Part shown: positions 30,385 to 51,253 of the stretch, in pieces
Layout of the letters: the number at the start of each line of letters is the position of its first letter
Numbering within the stretch: position 1 is the stretch's first letter
NCBI GenBank assembly: GCA_030038995.1
Contig: JASHQS010000178.1
Coordinates: forward strand, 1-64,000
DNA: 64,000 nucleotides
Origin: Xanthobacteraceae bacterium
GTDB lineage: Bacteria > Pseudomonadota > Alphaproteobacteria > Rhizobiales > Xanthobacteraceae
Direction: 5' to 3'
Notes under the pieces: generated by a model
The model's input: the letters and a program-made list of their open reading frames with translations, nothing else
The model's database searches: none
Told to the model about the DNA's origin: nothing
Translations under genes and position numbers: made by a program

Positions 30385-32187
30385 ATGCGTTGTTTCTCAC
30401 TTACGGTCGGTATTTGCATGGGACTGGTCGCAACGCTTACCGCGGCCACTGTCTATGCTGATAGCGATGAGGAAAAAGCAGCGGCAAACCCGGCCAATTG
30501 GGCAATGCCGCGGCTGAACAACAGCCTAACCGCCTATTCAACGCTGAAGCAGATCAACACCGGCAATGTCGGCAAGCTGCAGGTCGCATGGACGTTCTCC
30601 ACCGGCGTGCTGCGTGGCCACGAAGGAGCACCGCTCGTCATCGGCGATGTGATGTACTTAGTCACCCCGTTTCCGAACATCGTGTATGCGCTCGATCTCA
30701 ATCACGATGGGAAGATTATTTGGAAGTACGAGCCAAAGCAGGATCCCAATGTCATCCCGGTGATGTGCTGCGATACCGTCAATCGTGGCTTGTCGTTTGG
30801 TGACGGGAAGATTTTCCTGCACCAAGCCGACACTACGCTGGTCGCGCTCGACGCCAAGACCGGGAAGGTAGTGTGGTCGGTGAAGGATGGCGACCCGACG
30901 AAAGGCGAAACCGGCACGTCGGCGCCGTTCGTTTACAAGGACAAGGTCCTGGTCGGAGATTCCGGCGGAGAATTCGGCGTTCAGTGTCACATGACCGCCT
31001 ACAACATCAAGGACGGCAAGCGGGTGTGGCGTGGCTACTCTGAAGGCCCCGACGATCAAATTCTCGTCGACCCCGAAAAGACAACTTCGCTCGGCAAGCC
31101 GATCGGAAAGGATTCCAGCCTAAAAACTTGGCAGGGCGATCAATGGAAGATCGGCGGCGGCTGCACTTGGGGCTGGCCGTCCTACGATCCGCAGCTCAAT
31201 CTGATCTACTGGGGTTCAGGCAATCCGTCGACGTGGAACCCGAGCCAACGCCCGGGCGACAATAAATGGTCGATGACCATCTGGGCCCGCAACCTTGATA
31301 CCGGCGTGGCCAAGTGGGTCTATCAGATGACGCCCCACGACCAGTGGGACTATGACGGCGTCAACGAGATGGTCCTGACCGATCAGCGCATCAATGGTCG
31401 CGAACGCAAGCTCTTGACCCACTTCGATCGCAACGGTCTCGGCTACACGCTTGACCGCGTGACCGGCGAGCTTCTCGTCGCCCAGAAGTACGATCCGGCG
31501 GTAAACTGGACCAGCGGAGTCGACATGAACAAAAACTCCGCGAACTATGGCCGGCCCACGGTCGTCGAGAAATATTCGACGGAGACGCCGAATGTAAACC
31601 ATACCGGCATCTGTCCCGCGGCACTTGGAACCAAGGACGAGCAGCCGTCCGCCTATTCGCCGGAGACGCAGCTGTTCTACGTGCCGACGAACCACGTCTG
31701 CATGGACTACGAGCCGTTCAAGGTCAGCTACACGGCGGGTCAGCCTTATGTCGGGGCGACGCTCTCGATGTACCCGGCCCCTGGCGGCAACAACATGGGC
31801 AACTTCATCGCCTGGGACGGCAAGACGGGAAAGATCGTCTGGTCCGACCCCGAGCTGTTCTCGGTGTGGTCCGGCGCGCTGGCGACCGCCGGCGGCGTGG
31901 TGTTCTACGGCACGCTGGAAGGTTATCTGAAGGCGGTGGACGCCAAGACGGGTAAGCTGCTTTACAAGTTTAAAACCCCGTCCGGCATCATCGGCAACGT
32001 CATGACGTACGAGCACGGCGGCAAGCAATATGTGGCGGTGCTGTCTGGCGTCGGCGGCTGGGCGGGAATCGGCCTGGCGGCCGGCCTTACCGATCCGCAC
32101 GCCGGCTTGGGCGCAGTGGGCGGCTATGCCGCACTGAGCAACTACACTGCGCTGGGCGGACAGCTCACGGTCTTTACGCTGCCTTGA
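30385..32187 (+). CDS. xoxF: Lanthanide-type PQQ-dependent methanol dehydrogenase
   Basis: PQQ beta-propeller, vicinal disulfide MCCDTVNRG, and Asp in [13 protein letters not shown] (XoxF signature; MxaF has Ala at this site). Confidence 0.95.
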
Positions 32188-32842: not shown

Positions 32843-33730
32843 ATGAAGGGCGCAGCTATGACGAACCGGCTGGCTTATGCAGCCCTCTGCTGTGCATCGT
32901 TTGCCGTCAGCATGCCGGCGCCATCATTCGGGCAAGGCAATAGCGTTCTGCAGGGTGGGCTTGAACTGATCGATCCCAAGGTCCTGCGGGTCTGCGCCGA
33001 CCCCAACAGTCTGCCGCTGTCGAACGACAAGGGCGAAGGCTTCGAAAACAAACTTGCAGAACTCTTCGCCGCCAAGCTCGGCAAGAGCCTCTCTTACACC
33101 TATTACCCTGAATCCACCGGATTCGTGCGGAACACGCTCGGATCGTACCGTTGCGACGTCATCATGGGTTTTCCCCAGGGCGATGATCTCGTGCTGAGCA
33201 CCAACCCTTATTATCGGACCGGATACGCGTTCGTAGCCAAATCCGACAGCCCGCTCATCGATGTGGAAACGCTCAGCGACCCACGGCTAAAGGACAAGCG
33301 GCTCGGCATCGTGGCCGGCACGCCTCCGGCAACGTACCTGGTCACGGACGGATTGATGCAGAAGGCGAAGTCCTATCCGCTCGTGGTCGACACGCGCTAC
33401 GATTCGTCGCCCCTCGCAATGATCAATGACATCAAGTCAGGGGTGATCGACGCCGGTATCTTGTGGGGGCCGCTCGCCGGATACTACTCTTCGCGCGCCA
33501 ACCCGCCGATGCATACGACGCTGCTCCTGAAGGAGAAAGGCGGGCCGGGTCTTGTTTACCGGATCGTCATGGGCGTTCGACCGTCGGACTCGAATTGGCG
33601 AAGGCGGCTGAACCAGTTGATTGCCGAGAACCAGCCCGCCATCAACAAGCTGCTGCTCGATTACGGCGTGCCAATTCTCAACGAGCAGGATCAGCGCATC
33701 ACCGCCGACACTCTCACGCAAAAGCCGTGA
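32843..33730 (+). CDS. xoxJ: Periplasmic substrate-binding-like protein, XoxJ-like
   Basis: DPKVLRVCADPNSLPLSNDKGEGFENKLAELFAAKLGK; follows xoxFG. Confidence 0.87.
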   Translation: MKGAAMTNRLAYAALCCASFAVSMPAPSFGQGNSVLQGGLELIDPKVLRVCADPNSLPLSNDKGEGFENKLAELFAAKLGKSLSYTYYPESTGFVRNTLGSYRCDVIMGFPQGDDLVLSTNPYYRTGYAFVAKSDSPLIDVETLSDPRLKDKRLGIVAGTPPATYLVTDGLMQKAKSYPLVVDTRYDSSPLAMINDIKSGVIDAGILWGPLAGYYSSRANPPMHTTLLLKEKGGPGLVYRIVMGVRPSDSNWRRRLNQLIAENQPAINKLLLDYGVPILNEQDQRITADTLTQKP

Positions 33731-34962: not shown

Positions 34963-35931
34963 TCAATGGTCGGACATCGCAATGCCCCACGGCAACTCGC
35001 CGACCTGAACCGTATTGACAACTTTGAGGGCGGCAACGTCGATCACCGATACGTCGTTCGATACGCCGTTGGCCGCCAGCAAATATTTGCCGTCCGGCGT
35101 AAACGCCATGTGCCAAACCCGCTGGCCGACCAAAAGATATTTGATGACCTTATGGCTCTTCACGTCGACCACGGCCACGTGATTGGCCGGCCCAAGCGCG
35201 ATAAAGGCCAATTTACCATCGCTCGTAATATTGATCCCGACCGGCTGAATCGGGTCCGAGCGCATCCCGGCGATCGCAAATTCGATTTTGTCTTTGACGA
35301 CGCGCTTGACCGGATCGATGACGCTGACCGTGCCGCCGACCTCCGATGACACCCAAAGCTCCGATCCATCGGGAGTGAACGCTGCGAAACGCGGCCGCTG
35401 GTCGACCAGAACACTGGCCAAGACTTCGCGCTTCGCCGGATCGATGAAGTGGGCCATGTTGGTGGTTTCCGACGTGTTGATGAGAATCTTGCCATCAGGG
35501 CTCATGGCCATCCCCTCGGGCTCAACACCAACCTGCACCGCGCCGACCTGCTCCCGTCGCGCAATGTCGATGATCGTGACCGTGTTGTCGTTCTCGTTGG
35601 CGACGTAGAGAAACTTGCCATCGGGGCTCGCGGTGAAAAACTCCGGATCCGGGCCGGAAGGCAGCGTGTCGGCGACCGCGTTGGTGCCGGTATCGATCAT
35701 CTGGATCGTGTCGTCGTCGCCGCAGGCGACCAGAACATATTTTTGATCCTTGGTATAAGCGATGCCGCGCGGCCGCTGCCCGACCTTGATCGTTTTCACG
35801 ACCTTCCAGGCGTCGGTATCGATCAGAGAAACCGTGTTGCTCCTCTCGTTGGAAACGTACGCACGATAGGCGCTGGCCTGGCCGTCAAGCGTCAGCACAA
35901 GAGCGATGCCGAGAATGAACCGGAGCCACAT
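34963..35931 (-). CDS. YVTN-type beta-propeller protein, PQQ-dependent-catabolism-associated (LutB-like candidate)
   Basis: YVSNERSNTVSLIDTDAWKVVKTIKVGQRPRGIAYTKD repeats; signal peptide. Confidence 0.85.
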   Translation of the reverse strand: MWLRFILGIALVLTLDGQASAYRAYVSNERSNTVSLIDTDAWKVVKTIKVGQRPRGIAYTKDQKYVLVACGDDDTIQMIDTGTNAVADTLPSGPDPEFFTASPDGKFLYVANENDNTVTIIDIARREQVGAVQVGVEPEGMAMSPDGKILINTSETTNMAHFIDPAKREVLASVLVDQRPRFAAFTPDGSELWVSSEVGGTVSVIDPVKRVVKDKIEFAIAGMRSDPIQPVGINITSDGKLAFIALGPANHVAVVDVKSHKVIKYLLVGQRVWHMAFTPDGKYLLAANGVSNDVSVIDVAALKVVNTVQVGELPWGIAMSDH

Positions 35932-37256: not shown

Positions 37257-37772
37257 ATGCATGGCTGTTGGAAAATCGCCACCGCTGTGCCGTTTGCCGC
37301 TTTGCTCGCCGGCAGCGCCGCGGCATCGGGACCGAAAGTTGCAGTCTTCAACTTCGAACTCGTCGATACAAGCCTCGAAGGAGCGTCGTACGGGCCGCGG
37401 CCTGACCAACAGGAACGCCTCGCGCGCGGCGGAAATCAATTGCGCGATCGTTTGGCGAAATCGGGGCGGGTCGAAGTGGTCGATATTGTCGCAGTCGCCG
37501 CGCCGACCGCCGCGACCGGCTTGCCGACCTGCGACGGCTGCGGCGCGAAGTTTGCCCGCGAGCTGGGCGCGGATTATTCAATCGTCGGCTGGGTCCAGAA
37601 AGTTTCAAATCTGATCCTCAACATGAACATTGCGGTGCGGGACGCCAGAAGCGGCCAGCTCCTCGCTGTCAAGAGTGTGGACATGCGCGGCAATACCGAC
37701 GAGAGCTGGTCGCGCGCCCTCGATTGGTTGGTTCGCTATGAGCTCTTGGCGCCGAAGGGAGTCCTCCGATGA
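37257..37772 (+). CDS. Secreted DUF2380/DUF3280-like protein
   Basis: KVAVFNFELVDTSLEGA, CDGCGAKFARELGADYSIVGWVQKVSNLILNMNIAVRD. Confidence 0.7.
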   Translation: MHGCWKIATAVPFAALLAGSAAASGPKVAVFNFELVDTSLEGASYGPRPDQQERLARGGNQLRDRLAKSGRVEVVDIVAVAAPTAATGLPTCDGCGAKFARELGADYSIVGWVQKVSNLILNMNIAVRDARSGQLLAVKSVDMRGNTDESWSRALDWLVRYELLAPKGVLR

Positions 37773-38956
37773 CGCTCTTGCTCGCCAGCATCACAGATGC
37801 GCAGGAGGCTGAAATCGCACTGCGTCACGGCGCCGATATCATCGACGTCAAGGATGTCCGCAGCGGATTTGGCGCGGCCGACCCCGCTGTGGTTGCCGCG
37901 ACCGTTGATGCAGTGTCCGGGCGGCGGCCGGTCAGTGCGGTGACCGGGAACGGCAATATGGAACCCGAAGCCGTGCTGCGTGAGGCGGGAGCACTCGCCA
38001 ATGCGGGCCTCGACTATATCAAGATTGGCCTGTATCCCCACCCAAAGCGCCGCGACTGCATACGCGCGCTCTCCGCCTTGGCCGCTAGGGCGCGCCTCAT
38101 CGGGGTGATGTTTGCCGACCATGGAGCCGACGAAGCACTCGTTGCCGTCATGGCAGAGAGCGGCTTCTGCGGGATCATGATCGACACGTTCCAAAAGGAT
38201 CGCGGGCGCCTGCTCGACCATATGGATATTGCCGCGCTCGGGCATCTCACCGATGAGGCACACGGCCGCGGCCTGATGGCCGGACTGGCAGGTTCGCTGG
38301 AAGCGCCGGACATTCCGCGGCTGCTGCTGGTGACGCCTGATGTTCTTGGCTTCCGGCGGGCGCTGTGTGCGGGCAAACAGAGAGCCACGCCGCTGAGCGC
38401 CGAGGCGATCGATATCGTGCGGGGACTGATCCCAAAGGACTCGCGCCGGATCGATGCCGCCAGCCCGCCTTCGGCCAAACTCGACTATCGACTGCTGGCG
38501 GCGCGCGGTTATTCACTCGAGCCGAACAACGACGAGAATGGCGGCGACCGCATATTCTTACGCGATTTCATATTACCGGTGCGCATCGGAGCCTACGCTC
38601 ATGAGCGCGGCAAAACGCAAAACGTCCGGTTCAACGTCGAGGCCAGGGTGCGTCGCGCCGACCGCTTGGCCGAGGACATGCGCGACGTCGTCTCCTACGA
38701 TCTGATAGCCGATTCGATCCACATTATTGCCGCGCAAGAACATATTGCGTTGGTCGAAACCTTCGCGGAACGCATTGCCGCGCTTGTCTTGACTCACCCG
38801 CGGGTGACGAGCGTGACGGTTCGGGTGGAGAAGCTCGAAGTGGGACCGGGAGCGGCCGGCGTCGAGATCGTGCGCCATCGGCCCACCGAAGTTGCCAAGG
38901 TGCATCATCTCTATCCCACCGCGGCCACGGTTGCCGATCCGAAAGTCGCGACCTAA
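37769..38956 (+). CDS. Fusion of MfnB-like (5-formylfuran-3-yl)methyl phosphate synthase and FolB-like dihydroneopterin aldolase
   Basis: N-terminal MTLLLASITDAQEAEIALRHGADIIDVKDV...GLAGSLEAPDIPRLLLVTPDVLGFRRALC; C-terminal RIFLRDFILPVRIGAYAHERGKTQNVRFNVEARV...VETFAERIAALVLTHPRVTSVTVRVEKLE. Confidence 0.88.
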   Translation: MTLLLASITDAQEAEIALRHGADIIDVKDVRSGFGAADPAVVAATVDAVSGRRPVSAVTGNGNMEPEAVLREAGALANAGLDYIKIGLYPHPKRRDCIRALSALAARARLIGVMFADHGADEALVAVMAESGFCGIMIDTFQKDRGRLLDHMDIAALGHLTDEAHGRGLMAGLAGSLEAPDIPRLLLVTPDVLGFRRALCAGKQRATPLSAEAIDIVRGLIPKDSRRIDAASPPSAKLDYRLLAARGYSLEPNNDENGGDRIFLRDFILPVRIGAYAHERGKTQNVRFNVEARVRRADRLAEDMRDVVSYDLIADSIHIIAAQEHIALVETFAERIAALVLTHPRVTSVTVRVEKLEVGPGAAGVEIVRHRPTEVAKVHHLYPTAATVADPKVAT

Positions 38957-42139: not shown

Positions 42140-42425
42140 GCGCTGGCCGCAGACGCCGACGAGGTCCGCCGGAGCGAGGAGTAGTTGTCCGCAAGCCGCA
42201 GTTTGCGTGATTTTGCATGGTAGATCGTATGTGCGCGCCAAGGTGCCAACCAGGCAGCGAAGCCGAGAAGTTCGGCGCTATCGATTTGAGCCGGTGCGGG
42301 AAGCGCTCAAAAGATAGCTTGGGAGAATACGCGGCCGGTCTTAGTGAGCTACACTGTTGGAAGCAGGCGAATGCGAGCCCGCGCGCGGGAGGCTGGCGCG
42401 CGGTCCGCTGGCCGGGGGAGGAACC

Positions 42426-43889
42426 ATGATGAGCAACCGATCTGCCGCCGCGGCTGCGCCGTTGCCGGCGGCAGTACTGAGCCCGGTTCGGCGTGCGCTT
42501 TGGCATAACCGTTCAGTTCGCGTTCAGCTCTTGCTAGCCTTCGCCTTGATCGACCTCGTGACCGCGCTCGTCGCCGGCAGTCTGGCGATTTTGCGGGCGC
42601 GCGCACAGGTACGCGTCGAGATCGCGGCTTCGATGCGCCTTGCCAAGCTTCTCGTCGGCGACGCCGCCAATTTTGTCCACCAAGAAATCTCCGCCGAGCA
42701 ATTCCTCGCCGCCCTGCCGAAGCAATTGCTGTCGCTGCGGCACGTCCGGATCGAGGTGAAAAACAAATCCGGCGTCGCGGTCGCGCCGCCGCCCAACTTG
42801 GCCGCGGGGGACCAGGCCCACGCTCCGGCCTGGTTCACAGCACTCGTCGCGCCGCCCATCCGGTCGGACGTGGTGCCGGTGATCGTCGCCGGCCGAAACG
42901 TCGGACAGGTCGAGATCATCGGCGAACCTGCCGACGAAATCGCCGAGATTTGGCAGAACCTGGTGGCAACGGCAGGCGTGGCCGCAGTGCTCAACCTCGG
43001 CATGATCGGCATTCTTTACATCCTGTTCGGTCGAGTTCTCGACCCGTTGACCGCACTGGCCGCCGGCCTCTCCGATCTCGAGCAGCAGAGTGACGGCGTA
43101 CGGCTGCCGCGGCCGCTGGCGCGCGAGCTCGCCAGCATCACCGACCAATTCAACGCGCTCGCGCGCGCGCTCGAGACCGCGCGCATTGAGAATCGACAGC
43201 TCAACCGACGCTTGATTACGGCGCAAGACGACGAGCGGCGACGCACCGCGCTTGACCTGCATGACGAGGTCGGGCCGTGCCTCTTCGGGCTCAAAGCCTA
43301 CGCGTCCTCGATTGTCAACGCAGCGGGCGAACTGCCGGACCACGCGCGGCAGACCCTGCTGCAAAGCTCGCGCGAGATTCTGGCGATAATCGAGCGCCTG
43401 CAATCCATCAACCGGAGCATGCTCGAGCGCCTTCGACCGATGGCCTTGAGCCACGTGCCGCTGACGGACATTCTGGCGCAGCTCGTGCACGAGCGCGCTC
43501 ACCAGCACCCGCAGATTGATTTCGATTTCAAGGCCGGGCCGCTTGCGCGCAGCTACGGCGACTCGATCGATCTCACGATCTATCGCTGCGTTCAGGAAAG
43601 TCTGACCAATGCGGCACGGCACGCGCAGGCGCGGCACGTGACCGTCGAGCTTTGCCACGATGCCGGCGCGGCGTTGCTCACGATCCGCGATGACGGGCGC
43701 GGTATCGCCGCCGGCACACCGCCGGGATTCGGTATCCGCGGCATGCGCGAGCGCGTCGAAGGTTTGGGCGGTCATTACCGCATCGCGGGCGACCCCAACC
43801 GCGGCACCTGCGTGCACATCACCATTCCCACAGGCCAGCCGCAAACCGGCGAAGCGGGCGCCGCCTGGGCGGGCGAGGCGCTGGCATGA
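42426..43889 (+). CDS. Membrane histidine kinase, NarX/HisKA_3 type with HAMP-like linker
   Basis: Two TM segments; DDERRRTALDLHDEVGPCLFGLKAYASSI; ATPase ESLTNAARHAQARHV, DDGRGI, GFGIRGMRERVEGLGG. Confidence 0.9.
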   Translation: MMSNRSAAAAAPLPAAVLSPVRRALWHNRSVRVQLLLAFALIDLVTALVAGSLAILRARAQVRVEIAASMRLAKLLVGDAANFVHQEISAEQFLAALPKQLLSLRHVRIEVKNKSGVAVAPPPNLAAGDQAHAPAWFTALVAPPIRSDVVPVIVAGRNVGQVEIIGEPADEIAEIWQNLVATAGVAAVLNLGMIGILYILFGRVLDPLTALAAGLSDLEQQSDGVRLPRPLARELASITDQFNALARALETARIENRQLNRRLITAQDDERRRTALDLHDEVGPCLFGLKAYASSIVNAAGELPDHARQTLLQSSREILAIIERLQSINRSMLERLRPMALSHVPLTDILAQLVHERAHQHPQIDFDFKAGPLARSYGDSIDLTIYRCVQESLTNAARHAQARHVTVELCHDAGAALLTIRDDGRGIAAGTPPGFGIRGMRERVEGLGGHYRIAGDPNRGTCVHITIPTGQPQTGEAGAAWAGEALA

Positions 43890-44521
43890 CCCGCGTCCTG
43901 ATCGTGGACGATCATCCAATCGTGCTGCAGGGCTGCCGTCGCATGCTGCAGGATGCCGGGGTCGCCGAAGTGATCGAGGCACGCGACGTGGTCTCGGGCT
44001 ATCGGCTCTACCGCCGCAATTGCCCCGAGGTGATGATCGTCGATCTTGGCATGCAAGATAAGGGACTCGGCGGTCTGGCCCTTATCCGCCGCATCAACGC
44101 GCACAATCCGCGCGCTCGCATTCTCGTCTTCAGCATGCACAGCGATCCGGTCATCGTGGCCCGGGCGTTGCAAGCAGGCGCGATCGGTTACGTCGTCAAG
44201 GACGCGTCGGCAGAGAATTTCATGAAGGCATTCGAAAACGTCAGAGTTGGCTTGCCTTATCTCAGCAATGACCTTGCCACGCAGGTCGCGCTGGCCAATA
44301 TGCCGGCACGGCAGAATCCGCTGGCCGACCTGACGCCGCGCGAGTTGCAGACCTTGTCGCTGCTGGCCGAAGGCAAGCCCTACAGCCGTATCGCCGAGGA
44401 ACTCAACGTCAGCTACAAAACCGTCGCCAACGTGAGTGCCCAGCTCAAGCAGAAGCTCGATGCCCGCAATCTGCCCGAACTCATTCGTGCTGCGGTGCGG
44501 TTGGTGTCGATTGCCACCTGA
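43886..44521 (+). CDS. LuxR/NarL-family response regulator
   Basis: VLIVDDHPIVLQGCRRML, VDLGMQDKGLGGL, LTPRELQTLSLLAEGKPYSRIAEELNVSYKTVANVSAQLKQKL; start overlaps kinase stop. Confidence 0.92.
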   Translation: MTRVLIVDDHPIVLQGCRRMLQDAGVAEVIEARDVVSGYRLYRRNCPEVMIVDLGMQDKGLGGLALIRRINAHNPRARILVFSMHSDPVIVARALQAGAIGYVVKDASAENFMKAFENVRVGLPYLSNDLATQVALANMPARQNPLADLTPRELQTLSLLAEGKPYSRIAEELNVSYKTVANVSAQLKQKLDARNLPELIRAAVRLVSIAT

Positions 44522-45174: not shown

Positions 45175-45891
45175 GTGAGGAGAAAGTTCATCGTCGCCGC
45201 AGCAATGGCGGTGCTGGCTGGTACCACAGATGCACTTGCCGCTGATCTTCCAACGCCAAGTCCTGCTGTCCCATTGCCTGCTGCCGCCTACAACTGGACC
45301 GGGTTCTACATCGGCATCAATGGCGGCTATGGCACGGGTAACAGCAATTGGTCGGACGGCGCTGTGGGGACGACCGGCAGCTTCCCCACGTCCGGCTTTC
45401 TCGTTGGTGGTACAGTCGGCGTCAACTACCAGATAGGGCAATACGTATTCGGCATCGAGGGCGACGGCGACTGGACCAATCTGCAGGGTAATACCGGCCC
45501 CACCTGCGGCGCCATTTCTGCGCTGGTGCCGCCCCCCGATAGTTGTCAAACCCAGAGCGAATGGCTGGCCACGGTGCGCGGCCGCGTCGGTTATGCCTTT
45601 GACCGTATGCTCTTCTACGGCACCGCCGGTGCAGCTTTCGGCAATATCCAAACCGGACTGAATCCACCGTCGACTTTCGACAGCAGCGTCGAGGCGGGCT
45701 GGACTGCCGGCGCCGGGCTTGAATTCGCTCTCACGCAAAATTGGAGCGCCAAAGTCGAATATCTCTTCGTTGATTTGCCGAACGCCGCATGCACCAGTGT
45801 GGCGAACTGCGGCGGCGCCGCGGGCTCTATTGTGAGCTTCAATGAAGGCGTCGTACGCGCCGGCGTCAATTTCAAATTCGGTTCGTGGTGA
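45175..45891 (+). CDS. Omp25/Omp31-type 8-strand outer-membrane beta-barrel protein
   Basis: NWTGFYIGINGGYGTG...SEWLATVRGRVGYAFDRMLFYGTAGAAFGN...NWSAKVEYLFVDL...VRAGVNFKF. Confidence 0.92.
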   Translation: MRRKFIVAAAMAVLAGTTDALAADLPTPSPAVPLPAAAYNWTGFYIGINGGYGTGNSNWSDGAVGTTGSFPTSGFLVGGTVGVNYQIGQYVFGIEGDGDWTNLQGNTGPTCGAISALVPPPDSCQTQSEWLATVRGRVGYAFDRMLFYGTAGAAFGNIQTGLNPPSTFDSSVEAGWTAGAGLEFALTQNWSAKVEYLFVDLPNAACTSVANCGGAAGSIVSFNEGVVRAGVNFKFGSW

Positions 45892-45899
45892 GGGGGCAC

Positions 45900-48800
45900 A
45901 TGGGCAACGTTGCAGGTCTGGCTGGCCGAACAAGGACGTCGGTCGGGGAGGCGGCGCTTCGCGGACTGCTTCGGGCACTCCCAGTGGTGTTGGCAATTGC
46001 ACCAAGAACCGTTGCGGCGCAGGAAGCTTCGGGCTCGAGTGGGAGTTCAAGCGCGGTAACGCTTCCCGAGATCCACGTGATCGCGACCACCCCGGTTCCG
46101 CAGACAGCCCGCCCGCGGCGCGCTGCTCGAGCTGCAGGTCCGGCGTCCCGGGCTCCCGCGGCTGCGGCTCCTGCGCCCGCGGAGGCGCCCGCAACGCAAT
46201 CCATACCTGGCGCCGTCGACCAGGACAAAATCCCATCCAATGTCCAGGTGGTTGGATCTTCCGCTTTCGAGTCCACGAAGTCGCCCGACCTTTTGCAGTC
46301 AATGTTCCAGGCACTGCCCGGCGTTTCCTTGGGCGACCAGACCGGCAATCAATTCCAGCTTGACCTCAATTACCGCGGCTTTACCGCTTCCCCGGTCATT
46401 GGCACGCCGCAGGGACTGGCTGTCTATCAGAACGGGGTGCGCATCAACGAGGTTTTTGGTGACATCGTCAATTGGGACTTCATCCCGCAGAAAGCCATTA
46501 ATAGCCTGACCCTGTACCCGAGCAATCCGGTCTTCGGACTGAACGCGACCGGCGGCGCGCTGTCGTTCGATATGAAAAATGGCTTCACCTATCATGGTGT
46601 CGAAACCGAATTAAGCGGTGGATCATATGGACGGGTCGGCACGTCGGTACAGGCCGGCGGCCAAGTCGGAAACTTCTCCGGCTACATCGCGGCCGATGCC
46701 ATCGACGATGCCGGCTGGCGTCTGGACTCTGCATCCTCAGTGCGCCGCATTTACACCGATCTTGGCGCCCTCGGTGACAACAATACCGAATTCCACATCA
46801 CTTTCACCGGCGCCGATAACACCTTCGGTGCTGCCGCCGCCACTCCAGTGCAGTTGCTGAGCCAGAATTGGGCGAGCATCTATACGGTTCCCCAAACAAC
46901 GCATAATCAACTTGCGTTCCTGACCGCCAGTGCAAGCTGGAAGCCGACCGACACCTGGACCTATCAGGCTGTCGCCTACTATCGCCATTTTGATCAAGCC
47001 CATGTCGACGGCAATGGCACGAACGCCGACAACACGCCAGGATGCTTGACCGGGAGCCCTACGGATCCGATCTGCTTTGATAACCCCAACGGCACGACTT
47101 CTCCCCTCGTCACAACGACGGGACAGAATGTCCCGAACTCCGGTGCTCTGGGCTTTCCGAATGTCTTGGGCGAAATCGACCGAACCTGGACGACGACCGA
47201 CAGCTTCGGCGGCTCGGTCCAGGCGGCGTCTTCGGAGCGAGTATTCGGTCACAACAACAACTTCACGGTGGGCCTAAGCGTCGATCGCGGGCTGGTGCAG
47301 TTCTCGACCACGAGCGAGCTGGGAACGGTCAACCCCGATACGTATCCGTTCGTCATCGGCAGCGGCCTCTTCATCGACCAGCCTTCGTCCGCTGGCATAG
47401 GGGGCGTCGCGCCGGTCGGCCTGGGTGCAACGACGCTCTATACCGGCCTCTACGCGACCGACACGTTCGATCTCACCCCGCGTCTATCGCTCACCGCAGG
47501 GGCTCGTTACAACATCGCCCAAATCAATTTGACGGACGAATTGGGCAATGACTCCGAACTTAATGGCAACGACACCTTCGCTCATTTCAATCCCATGATC
47601 GGCGCAACCTATAAGATCACACCGAACCTCACGCTCTATGGCGATTATGCGATTGCAAATCGCGCGCCAACACCCTTGGAATTGGAGTGTTCCGACCCGT
47701 CGCGGCCATGCCTGATCGATAACGCTCTTGTTGGCGATCCCCCTCTGCAACAAGTGGTGACATACACCTATGAAGCCGGCTTGCGCGGCCAATTCGACAT
47801 CGCCAGCGGGCATGCGAATTGGAGCGTGGGCGCTTACCACGCGCTCAATACCAACGACATCATAGACATACTAACCCCGCAATCGGTGGCCATAGGACGC
47901 GAGTTTTTTCAGAACGCCGGCGATACGCTGCGGCAGGGCATCGAAGCCAACGCGTCGTACAAATGGGATCGCTTTAACATCTATGCCAACTACACCTACG
48001 TCGACGCCACATTCTTGAGCGCCTTGCTTCTGCCCTCGACGGTGAACGCAAGCGGCACCCAGAACGTGGTTCCCGGCGATCATCTGACCGGCATTCCCGA
48101 CTTCCGCTTCAAGCTTGGCGGGGAATACCAGATCACCGCTCCATGGAAACTCGGCGCCGATCTTAACGTAGTCGGCAGCCAGTGGCTGGTTGGCGATGAG
48201 TCGAACCAGCTCCCCCAAGTGCCGGCTTATTGGGTGGTGAACTTGCACTCGTCCTATAAGATTTCGGATAACATCGAGGTGTTCGGGCTGATACGCAATT
48301 TATTCAATCAACGCTACTACACGTACGGGCTATTAACGGATGTCACCGAGTTTGGTTATCTGAATCTGACCGACGACCGCACCTTCCTCCCCGGCATGCC
48401 GTTTGCCGCCTATGTGGGAGTGAAGGGGACGCTCCCCTCTGGAGGACCGGCATTCGCCGCCTTTGGTTCGCGGCCGACAATTACAAAAGCGCCGCCTGCC
48501 GGCGTGACGTCGCCCTTCGTTGATTGGACCGGGGTCTACCTTGGCGTCAACGCCGGCTATAGCTTCGGGGGCAGCGATTGGTCGGATAGCGTGACCGGCA
48601 GCTCGAGCGGCAGCTTCGGCACCTCCGGTTTTGCTTTCGGCGGGACGCTTGGCGCCAATTACCAGACCGGCTGGCTGGTGTTCGGCGTCGAGGCCGATGG
48701 CGATTGGACCGACGCCAGCGGTTTCGGCACCTTCACCAGCGCCAGCCTCTGCGCCGGAGGTTGCCTGACCGGCAATAGCTGGCTCGCCACCGTGCGTGGC

Positions 48801-49121
48801 CGCGCCGGCTATGCTTTCGACCGCTTTCTCGTCTACGGCACCGGCGGCGCCGCTTTCGGCAATGTCCAGGCGAGCTTCTCGAACGACCCGGTGAGCAGCG
48901 CGACTGAGGCAGGCTGGACCGCAGGTGCCGGCGTCGAGGTCGCTTTAGATCGCAATTGGAGCGCCAAGGCCGAATATCTCTTCGTCGACCTTGCCAACGG
49001 GTCCTGCACCGCGGATTGCGCCATCGCAAACGCCAACGGACCGCCGTTAATTCCTAACGTCGCCGTAAAATTCGACGAGAGCATCGTGCGCGGAGGCGTC
49101 AATTACAGATTTACGTTTTAG
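45900..49121 (+). CDS. TonB-dependent receptor fused to a C-terminal Omp25/31-type beta-barrel (LutH-like candidate by context)
   Basis: TBDR plug/barrel (FQALPGVSLGDQTGNQFQLDLNYRGF...IRNLFNQRYYTYG...TFLPGMPFAAYVGVKGTL), then DWTGVYLGVNAGYSFGG...NSWLATVRGRAGYAFDRFLVYGTGGAAFGN...VRGGVNYRFTF with no intervening stop; alternative GTG start at 45885. Confidence 0.92.
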   Translation: MGNVAGLAGRTRTSVGEAALRGLLRALPVVLAIAPRTVAAQEASGSSGSSSAVTLPEIHVIATTPVPQTARPRRAARAAGPASRAPAAAAPAPAEAPATQSIPGAVDQDKIPSNVQVVGSSAFESTKSPDLLQSMFQALPGVSLGDQTGNQFQLDLNYRGFTASPVIGTPQGLAVYQNGVRINEVFGDIVNWDFIPQKAINSLTLYPSNPVFGLNATGGALSFDMKNGFTYHGVETELSGGSYGRVGTSVQAGGQVGNFSGYIAADAIDDAGWRLDSASSVRRIYTDLGALGDNNTEFHITFTGADNTFGAAAATPVQLLSQNWASIYTVPQTTHNQLAFLTASASWKPTDTWTYQAVAYYRHFDQAHVDGNGTNADNTPGCLTGSPTDPICFDNPNGTTSPLVTTTGQNVPNSGALGFPNVLGEIDRTWTTTDSFGGSVQAASSERVFGHNNNFTVGLSVDRGLVQFSTTSELGTVNPDTYPFVIGSGLFIDQPSSAGIGGVAPVGLGATTLYTGLYATDTFDLTPRLSLTAGARYNIAQINLTDELGNDSELNGNDTFAHFNPMIGATYKITPNLTLYGDYAIANRAPTPLELECSDPSRPCLIDNALVGDPPLQQVVTYTYEAGLRGQFDIASGHANWSVGAYHALNTNDIIDILTPQSVAIGREFFQNAGDTLRQGIEANASYKWDRFNIYANYTYVDATFLSALLLPSTVNASGTQNVVPGDHLTGIPDFRFKLGGEYQITAPWKLGADLNVVGSQWLVGDESNQLPQVPAYWVVNLHSSYKISDNIEVFGLIRNLFNQRYYTYGLLTDVTEFGYLNLTDDRTFLPGMPFAAYVGVKGTLPSGGPAFAAFGSRPTITKAPPAGVTSPFVDWTGVYLGVNAGYSFGGSDWSDSVTGSSSGSFGTSGFAFGGTLGANYQTGWLVFGVEADGDWTDASGFGTFTSASLCAGGCLTGNSWLATVRGRAGYAFDRFLVYGTGGAAFGNVQASFSNDPVSSATEAGWTAGAGVEVALDRNWSAKAEYLFVDLANGSCTADCAIANANGPPLIPNVAVKFDESIVRGGVNYRFTF

Positions 49122-49146: not shown

Positions 49147-49503
49147 TTGGTGACAGCCGTGTTCCGCATCATCCTCGCAATCGTCGGCTTCACGCTCATG
49201 GCGAGCCAAGCCTCGGCCCAGGGTAAGCCGACACGGTTCTGGAATCTGACCCGCAACACCATTTCGGAATTTTACTTGGCGCCGGCCGGCACCACGGATT
49301 GGGGCCCAAACCAGTGCAAAAACGACAAGGACGGCACCGTCGACTCGGACGAGCGGCTCCGCATCACCGGTGTTTCATCAGGTATTTACGATGCCAGACT
49401 GGTCGATAATACAGGCCGCACGTGTATTGCTCGCAATGTGAAAGTGGAGGCGGGCGGCATTTTCGCGATTGACGAAAAAGACCTTACATCATGCACTCAC
49501 TGA
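49147..49503 (+). CDS. Small secreted protein with EF-hand-like acidic loop
   Basis: Signal peptide; FWNLTRNTISEFYLAPAGTTDWGPNQCKNDKDGTVDSDERLRITGVSSGIYDARLVDNTGRTC. Confidence 0.65.
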   Translation: MVTAVFRIILAIVGFTLMASQASAQGKPTRFWNLTRNTISEFYLAPAGTTDWGPNQCKNDKDGTVDSDERLRITGVSSGIYDARLVDNTGRTCIARNVKVEAGGIFAIDEKDLTSCTH

Positions 49504-49591: not shown

Positions 49592-50335
49592 TCACTGCGG
49601 TCCGGTCATCGCCAAGAATGCCTCTTCGATCGTGTGCGCGCCGGCATCGGCGACAAGCCTGGCCGGCGTCGTGTCGGCCAGCACTTTGCCGTGATGCAGC
49701 ACGATCACGCGGTCGGCGCCGGATACTTCATTGCACAAATGCGTCGCCCACAGCACCGCCACTGAGCGTTCCGTGCGCATGCTTAAGATCAGCTTGAGCA
49801 GGTCGCTGCGGCTCGCCGGGTCGAGTCCCACGGTGGGCTCGTCCATGAGCAGCACCCGCGGCTCGTGCAGCAGTGCGCGGGCAAGTTCGACGCGCCGCCG
49901 GTTGCCGCCGCTGAGTTGCGCCGTCCTGTCATGGGCCCGTTTGGCGAGTCCGAGCCGCGCCAGATCGGCCTCGATGCGGCTCATTGCGACCGACCGCGGC
50001 ATCCCGTGCAAGCCGGCGTGAAACAGAAGGTTCCCGGTCACGGTGAGCTCGAGATCGAGCGTCGGCTGCTGAAACACGATGCCCAGCTTGGCCAGCGCCG
50101 GCACTGGATTGCGCCGCATGTCCTGGCCCATGATTTCGATGCGGCCGGAGTCCGGCACGAACAATCCGGCCAACAGCTGGAACAACGTCGTCTTGCCGGC
50201 GCCATTCGGGCCGAGCAGGGCGATGAACGCGCCGGACGCTGCGCTGAAGCTGACGCCATCGACCGCCCGGATCGAGCCGTAGGTCTTGACGACGTTGTCG
50301 AGCAGCAGCGCCGGCGCATCGCGTTCGGATGTCAT
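49592..50335 (-). CDS. ABC transporter ATP-binding protein, PQQ-alcohol-dehydrogenase system (LutE-like candidate)
   Basis: Walker A LLGPNGAGKTT, signature LSGGNRRRVELARALLHEP, Walker B VLLMDEP. Confidence 0.88.
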   Translation of the reverse strand: MTSERDAPALLLDNVVKTYGSIRAVDGVSFSAASGAFIALLGPNGAGKTTLFQLLAGLFVPDSGRIEIMGQDMRRNPVPALAKLGIVFQQPTLDLELTVTGNLLFHAGLHGMPRSVAMSRIEADLARLGLAKRAHDRTAQLSGGNRRRVELARALLHEPRVLLMDEPTVGLDPASRSDLLKLILSMRTERSVAVLWATHLCNEVSGADRVIVLHHGKVLADTTPARLVADAGAHTIEEAFLAMTGPQ

Positions 50336-50437
50336 TTGACCCAGCTCTCACCCATGGGCTTGCTCGCCGGTCTCGTTGAGACGTAGGCTGGCTGCTGCGC
50401 CGATCGGTACCAATGCCGGAAAATGCAAAGAGCGTCC

Positions 50438-51253
50438 ATGCCGCTGATCCATGTCTTTCGTGCCCTGCGCGCCGTCACCACGCGGGAGGTGCTGAAATTC
50501 GTCCAGCAGCGCGGCCGGCTGCTGTCCGCCCTGGTACGCCCGCTGATGTGGCTCGCGGTATTCGCCGCCGGCTTCTACAACGTGTTCGGCGTATCGATCA
50601 TCCCGCCGTACAAGGTGTACATCACCTATCAGGAGTACATCGTGCCCGGCCTTCTGGGCATCATCCTGCTGTTCCATGGCATGCAATCCTCGCTGTCGAT
50701 GGTCTACGACCGCGAAATGGGAGTGATGCGGCTCCTGCTGACGGCGCCACTGCCGCGATGGGTGTTGTTGGCCTGCAAGCTCGTCGCCGGCACCGCGCTG
50801 TCGGTCATCACCTGTTATGTGTTTATCGCCGTCTGCATTCCATTCGGTGTGACGTTCGATCCGATAGCCTGGCTCGAAGTGCTGCCGGCCTTGATCATTT
50901 CCGGCTTGATGCTGGGCGCCCTGTGGCTGTTCATCTCAGTATACATCCGGCAAGTCGAGAACTTCGCAGGGGCGATGAATTTCGTGATGTTTCCCATGTT
51001 CTTTTTCTCGTCGGCGCTCTATCCGCTGTGGAAATTGCAGCAGAGCGGTTCGCAGTGGGTGTACTATGTGGCGCTTGCCAATCCGTTCACCTACGCGGTG
51101 GAGCTGATCCGATTTGCGCTCTACGGCCAATTCGAAGCGACCTCGGCCGCGGTCGTGGCCGGCTCGACCGCATTGTTTTTCCTCCTTGCCGTCATCGGCT
51201 ACAACCCGCAGCGCGGCATGATCCGCCGGACCGCACAAGCACAGCCGGCGTAG
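50438..51253 (+). CDS. ABC-2 type transporter permease, PQQ-alcohol-dehydrogenase system (LutF-like candidate)
   Basis: RPLMWLAVFAAGF, YIVPGLLGIILLFHGMQSSLSMVYDREMGVMRLLLTAPLPRW; start inferred. Confidence 0.87.
   Translation: MPLIHVFRALRAVTTREVLKFVQQRGRLLSALVRPLMWLAVFAAGFYNVFGVSIIPPYKVYITYQEYIVPGLLGIILLFHGMQSSLSMVYDREMGVMRLLLTAPLPRWVLLACKLVAGTALSVITCYVFIAVCIPFGVTFDPIAWLEVLPALIISGLMLGALWLFISVYIRQVENFAGAMNFVMFPMFFFSSALYPLWKLQQSGSQWVYYVALANPFTYAVELIRFALYGQFEATSAAVVAGSTALFFLLAVIGYNPQRGMIRRTAQAQPA

Follow-up and report, generated by a model that had tools for sequence, protein, structure and literature searches.

Organization of the locus

The window analyzed here is a 64,000-nucleotide stretch of DNA from a Xanthobacteraceae bacterium, and at positions 45900-49121 of its forward strand it encodes, in a single ORF, a TonB-dependent receptor (TBDR) fused to a small outer-membrane barrel. 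The frame is open without interruption from 45885 to 49121 (+), and the ATG at 45900 is the likely start of a protein of 1073 amino acids; residues of the fusion are numbered throughout from the codon at 45885. Directly upstream lies a free paralogous small barrel, barrel A (45175-45891, +; PF13505, E 1.5e-18), which ends 8 bp before the receptor ATG and is 52% identical to the fused barrel, barrel B. These genes are preceded by a histidine kinase (HisKA_3, LapD_MoxY_N; 42357-43889, +) and a LuxR-type response regulator (43886-44521, +), a pair that also precedes the unfused receptor of a sister genome, G008, and is found near the unfused receptor of G007. A secreted-looking protein of 118 amino acids with no Pfam match follows 25 bp after the fusion (49147-49503, +). 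An 84% identical copy follows the fusion in L013 (14022-14369), and no homologue turned up in the island of G008, where the receptor is unfused; the protein has an EF-hand-like stretch, DKDGTVDSDE.

The surrounding island encodes an XoxF-type PQQ methanol dehydrogenase (30385-32187, +; TIGR03075) with the sequence WDYDGVN, in which DYDG begins at residue 322 and the D-Y-D motif is of the lanthanide type. Further members, each above the cut-off of its family, are a XoxJ/MoxJ-like binding protein (32843-33730, +; TIGR03871), a PedA2-type beta-propeller (34963-35931, -; TIGR03866), a PedB/LutE-type ABC ATPase (49592-50335, -; TIGR03864) and a PedC/LutF-type ABC-2 permease (50423-51253, +; TIGR03861). 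At 37769-38956, 4-HFC-P synthase and FolB (dihydroneopterin aldolase) domains are joined in a single chain, likely an enzyme fusion of C1-cofactor (methanofuran/pterin) metabolism, with a full-length counterpart (64%) in G008.

Two predicted barrels in one chain

The initial annotation had read the ORF as a receptor, a linker and an Omp25/31-type barrel ending in GVNYRFTF, and this reading holds: a Pfam scan placed Plug, TonB_dep_Rec_b-barrel and OMP_b-brl above their cut-offs within the one open frame. The chain begins with a signal peptide (45900-46019, +), a hydrophobic segment with a mean hydropathy of up to 2.1 over 12 residues and a cleavage site placed by eye after ...RTVAA. A TonB-box-like stretch, LPEIHVIA (46062-46085, +), was likewise read by eye, and LPEI.V recurs in the unfused homologues L015, L016 and L020. 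The Plug domain (46221-46559, +; PF07715, E 2e-9, residues 113-225) and a barrel of about 22 strands that extends to residue 850 (46575-48434, +; PF00593, E 2e-42, Pfam match at residues 305-806) together make up a TonB-dependent receptor. This part ends ...PFAAYVGVKGTL at residue 850 and is followed by a Gly/Pro/Ala-rich linker of about 27 residues that holds no hydrophobic segment (48435-48515, +), and then by barrel B (48516-49118, +; PF13505, E 1e-20, residues 880-1076). Barrel B scores 75 bits against a profile cut-off of 28.7, has eight predicted strands and is thus a member of the OMP_b-brl family. Among the windows sampled ahead of it, the 12-residue mean hydropathy did not exceed 0.87, compared to 2.1 in the true signal, and an internal signal peptide was rejected. 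Lacking a signal peptide, barrel B can be exported only within the receptor chain.

In a first AlphaFold2 (AF2) model the TBDR was predicted with confidence, most blocks having a pLDDT of 80-97, and the last strand of the receptor was placed at model residues 737-746, which correspond to residues 841-850. The small barrel was left unfolded in this model because the aligner had put small-barrel rows under the receptor. When the relatives were correctly placed, a second model gave eight long strands at model residues 779-972, most blocks at a pLDDT of 66-90, after a linker predicted to be disordered (pLDDT about 30); this model is moderate overall, with a mean pLDDT of 59.6 and a pTM of 0.53. 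The prediction is of two strand sets rather than the single barrel that, by the initial annotation, would have refuted the architecture. Together with the usual topology of each family it suggests two separate barrels whose linker starts and ends in the periplasm. Laboratory duplication of OmpX reportedly yielded one larger pore, and the strands of the small barrel could by analogy merge with those of the receptor into one barrel of about 30 strands. We consider this exceedingly improbable, as the receptor already forms a complete barrel whose end coincides with the native C-terminus of homologous proteins, and the disordered linker parts the two strand sets in the model.

The fusion is genuine and young

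Homologues were collected from public genomes and, following the taxonomy of the window, at the levels of genus, family, order and class. About 30 unfused homologues from more than 20 genera have their C-terminus at residue 850 or within 16 residues of it; L016, unfused and 70% identical, ends ...PFAAYVGIKGTL at the same point. Unfused homologues thus terminate where the linker starts, which places the fusion point just behind the native C-terminus. Within the fusion, the final strand of the receptor part closes with Leu and not with an aromatic residue, a feature that probably predates the fusion, since unfused L016 and L020 also end ...TL. As a separate observation, the receptor homologue at L020 and L029 (G005) carries a large in-frame internal deletion that leaves 389 amino acids, with the plug joined to the last strands.

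Including the window copy, the fusion is found in four MAGs; it recurs with the frame kept in at least three others of the genus, at identities down to about 80-85%. Full copies are present in L013 (the G009 sequence) and L014 (the G023 sequence) at 93% identity, and in G012 the parts of the fusion lie on separate contigs, which share an identical 81-bp stretch at the junction. In G002, a contig end carries barrel A together with the first part of the receptor. The window copy of barrel B has a dN/dS of 0.148 against G009 and 0.229 against G023, and of 0.153 against G012 at a dS of 0.74; the MAGs with the fusion are drafts, some of them from a single project, and the dS values mark distinct lineages. 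The receptor part has a similar dN/dS, 0.125-0.166, and the linker, the least conserved part of the fusion, has 0.5-0.9 against G009 and G023. Barrel B is under purifying selection. The window genome is itself a draft of 316 contigs, and an assembly or sequencing artefact could in principle have joined two genes; however, the same junction occurs in separate MAGs both at 92-94% and at about 80-85% identity, with the frame kept and dN/dS low, so that an artefact is very unlikely, the chance being close to nil, and was rejected. The in-frame join is confirmed as real and young.

The order of TBDR and small barrel is confined to one genus among the roughly 300 genomes examined. Long frames with PF13505 in G126 and G144 proved to be open upstream frames and not fusions, and at L064 (G027:C57) two small barrels adjoin on one strand. 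The 99%-complete sister genome G008 has an unfused receptor within an island of unchanged gene order (propeller, C1-cofactor genes, kinase, regulator, receptor, PedB, PedC, second ABC operon), and neither barrel A nor barrel B was detected in its island. Read most simply, barrels A and B were both gained next to the receptor inside the genus. The tree of small barrels does not single out a donor for barrel B, and a descent of barrel B from barrel A is not evident.

Ligand of the receptor

In M. extorquens, LutH and the Lut ABC transporter have been shown to import lanthanides (PMC7391723), and in P. putida PedA1A2BC has been shown to be a lanthanide uptake system (PMC12997753). The fusion shares its Plug and TBDR barrel with LutH of Methylorubrum extorquens and differs from it by the additional C-terminal 8-strand barrel and the free barrel upstream. 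Its genomic location is that of LutH-like receptors, beside XoxF and PedA2/LutE/LutF-type ABC components, and an unfused relative (L017/G007) adjoins PQQ dehydrogenases. Furthermore, a 41%-identical receptor encoded on plasmid pMNOD02 of Methylobacterium nodulans is one gene removed from a lanmodulin whose score is above the NCBIfam cut-off (NF053806). The LutH-like role proposed in the initial annotation is supported by this context, through the motif of XoxF, the Ped-type families and the homologue near lanM. A lanthanide is the best supported ligand of the receptor, though this is not proven.

The cargo might instead be something other than a lanthanide complex, such as an iron siderophore, PQQ or a complex of PQQ with a metal. 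PqqU/YncD is the closest solved fold to the receptor part, ahead of further fold matches to FhuA and FecA, and also the closest sequence profile, and the NCBIfam models for PqqU, heme and siderophore receptors each match weakly. The signature of PqqU is an aromatic residue at Tyr99, together with Arg304 and Arg365 (PMC12124388). In the receptor Ile aligns to Tyr99, with Arg304 and Arg365 outside the aligned stretches, and the score against the NCBIfam PqqU equivalog is 82 bits compared to a cut-off of 1200; an identity with PqqU was rejected on these grounds. PqqE is moreover encoded in the genome, and the lanmodulin near a relative and the Ped/Lut-type neighbours speak for lanthanides. We therefore regard a non-lanthanide cargo as rather unlikely.

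Role of the small barrel

How a second barrel would serve such a receptor can be outlined as follows. The single chain would fold into two outer-membrane barrels that are independent of each other, connected through a flexible periplasmic linker of about 27 residues and both probably assembled by BAM. The larger, plugged barrel would act in TonB-dependent import, in the manner of LutH, and supply XoxF with a lanthanide or lanthanide-chelate, and barrel B, which derives from the Omp25/31-like barrel family that is abundant in the window genome (14 matches), would be delivered 1:1 beside the receptor because it is exported only as part of it. Eight-stranded barrels are usually non-conducting, and the second pore suggested in the initial annotation is thus unlikely for a barrel predicted to have eight strands. 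No acidic cluster suggesting metal capture was seen in the loops of barrel B. It would most likely act as a lateral tether or surface module. Taken as a whole, we lean slightly towards this proposal. Its more specific form, that a two-barrel TBDR is a functional architecture in which the tethered barrel tunes lanthanide uptake via clustering, surface capture or envelope anchoring, is a tentative idea that we hold to be doubtful.

There are two further ways in which the fusion could be understood. The small barrel may be a neutral or near-neutral passenger with no specific role in uptake: a barrel gene would have inserted downstream of the receptor and lost its signal peptide, along with the stop codon between the two, and the barrel would be kept only since one that cannot fold would jam BAM. 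Confinement of the fusion to one genus, the abundance of small barrels in the genome, a dN/dS resembling that of free barrel A (0.23) and the fact that most receptor homologues manage without a small barrel are all consistent with this. However, barrel B was kept over a dS of about 0.6-0.7 with no loss of frame, even though truncating the chain would be an easy way back to the ancestral receptor, and of barrel A only a 37-codon remnant is left in G012, where barrel B is still fused. As the purifying selection on barrel B could reflect foldability alone, a tether or surface module and a neutral passenger are not separable here, and we assign the passenger an appreciable chance, clearly short of even. 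A polyprotein, exported whole and then cut in the linker to release a normal receptor and a normal small barrel at 1:1, would fit the poor conservation and predicted disorder of the linker, as well as an A-F-A triplet that is kept in the linkers of G000, G009, G023 and G012. Yet in the windows sampled no hydrophobic stretch resembling a signal peptide comes before barrel B, and no protease was identified; this makes cleavage improbable. The tethered pair of barrels thus remains the reading that we prefer.

Precedent and implications

The architecture was initially called unusual, which stands for the combination of a TBDR with a small barrel and does not extend to two-barrel chains in general. 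Chains of OMP_b-brl and OprB are encoded in the window genome (L010 1495-3564), in another genus of the family (L094 989-2959) and in Methylobacterium fujisawaense (L105 257-2392), and judging from these domain matches appear to be a recurrent two-barrel chain in Alphaproteobacteria. Like the fusion, they have two outer-membrane barrels per chain, one of them PF13505; in contrast, their small barrel is N-terminal with an OprB porin as partner, whereas that of the fusion is C-terminal to a TBDR. Barrels A and B both belong to the Omp25/Omp31-like small barrels (PF13505), from which barrel B differs in having no signal peptide and being the tail of a receptor. At L095 1401-3209, OMP_b-brl is followed by about 300 residues resembling a second, unclassified barrel. 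In the literature searched, mainly freely available papers, no description of a small barrel joined to a TBDR was found. Two-barrel chains are already known, and what is new is the order of TBDR and small barrel, found in one genus of the survey.

The existence of the OMP_b-brl and OprB chains indicates that BAM evidently copes with two barrels per chain. The fusion is a natural test of how BAM deals with a chain of two complete barrels that differ greatly in size, for which the unfused sister genome with the same gene order is a control. It also marks a likely rare-earth uptake receptor in a lineage of the Xanthobacteraceae about which little is known.
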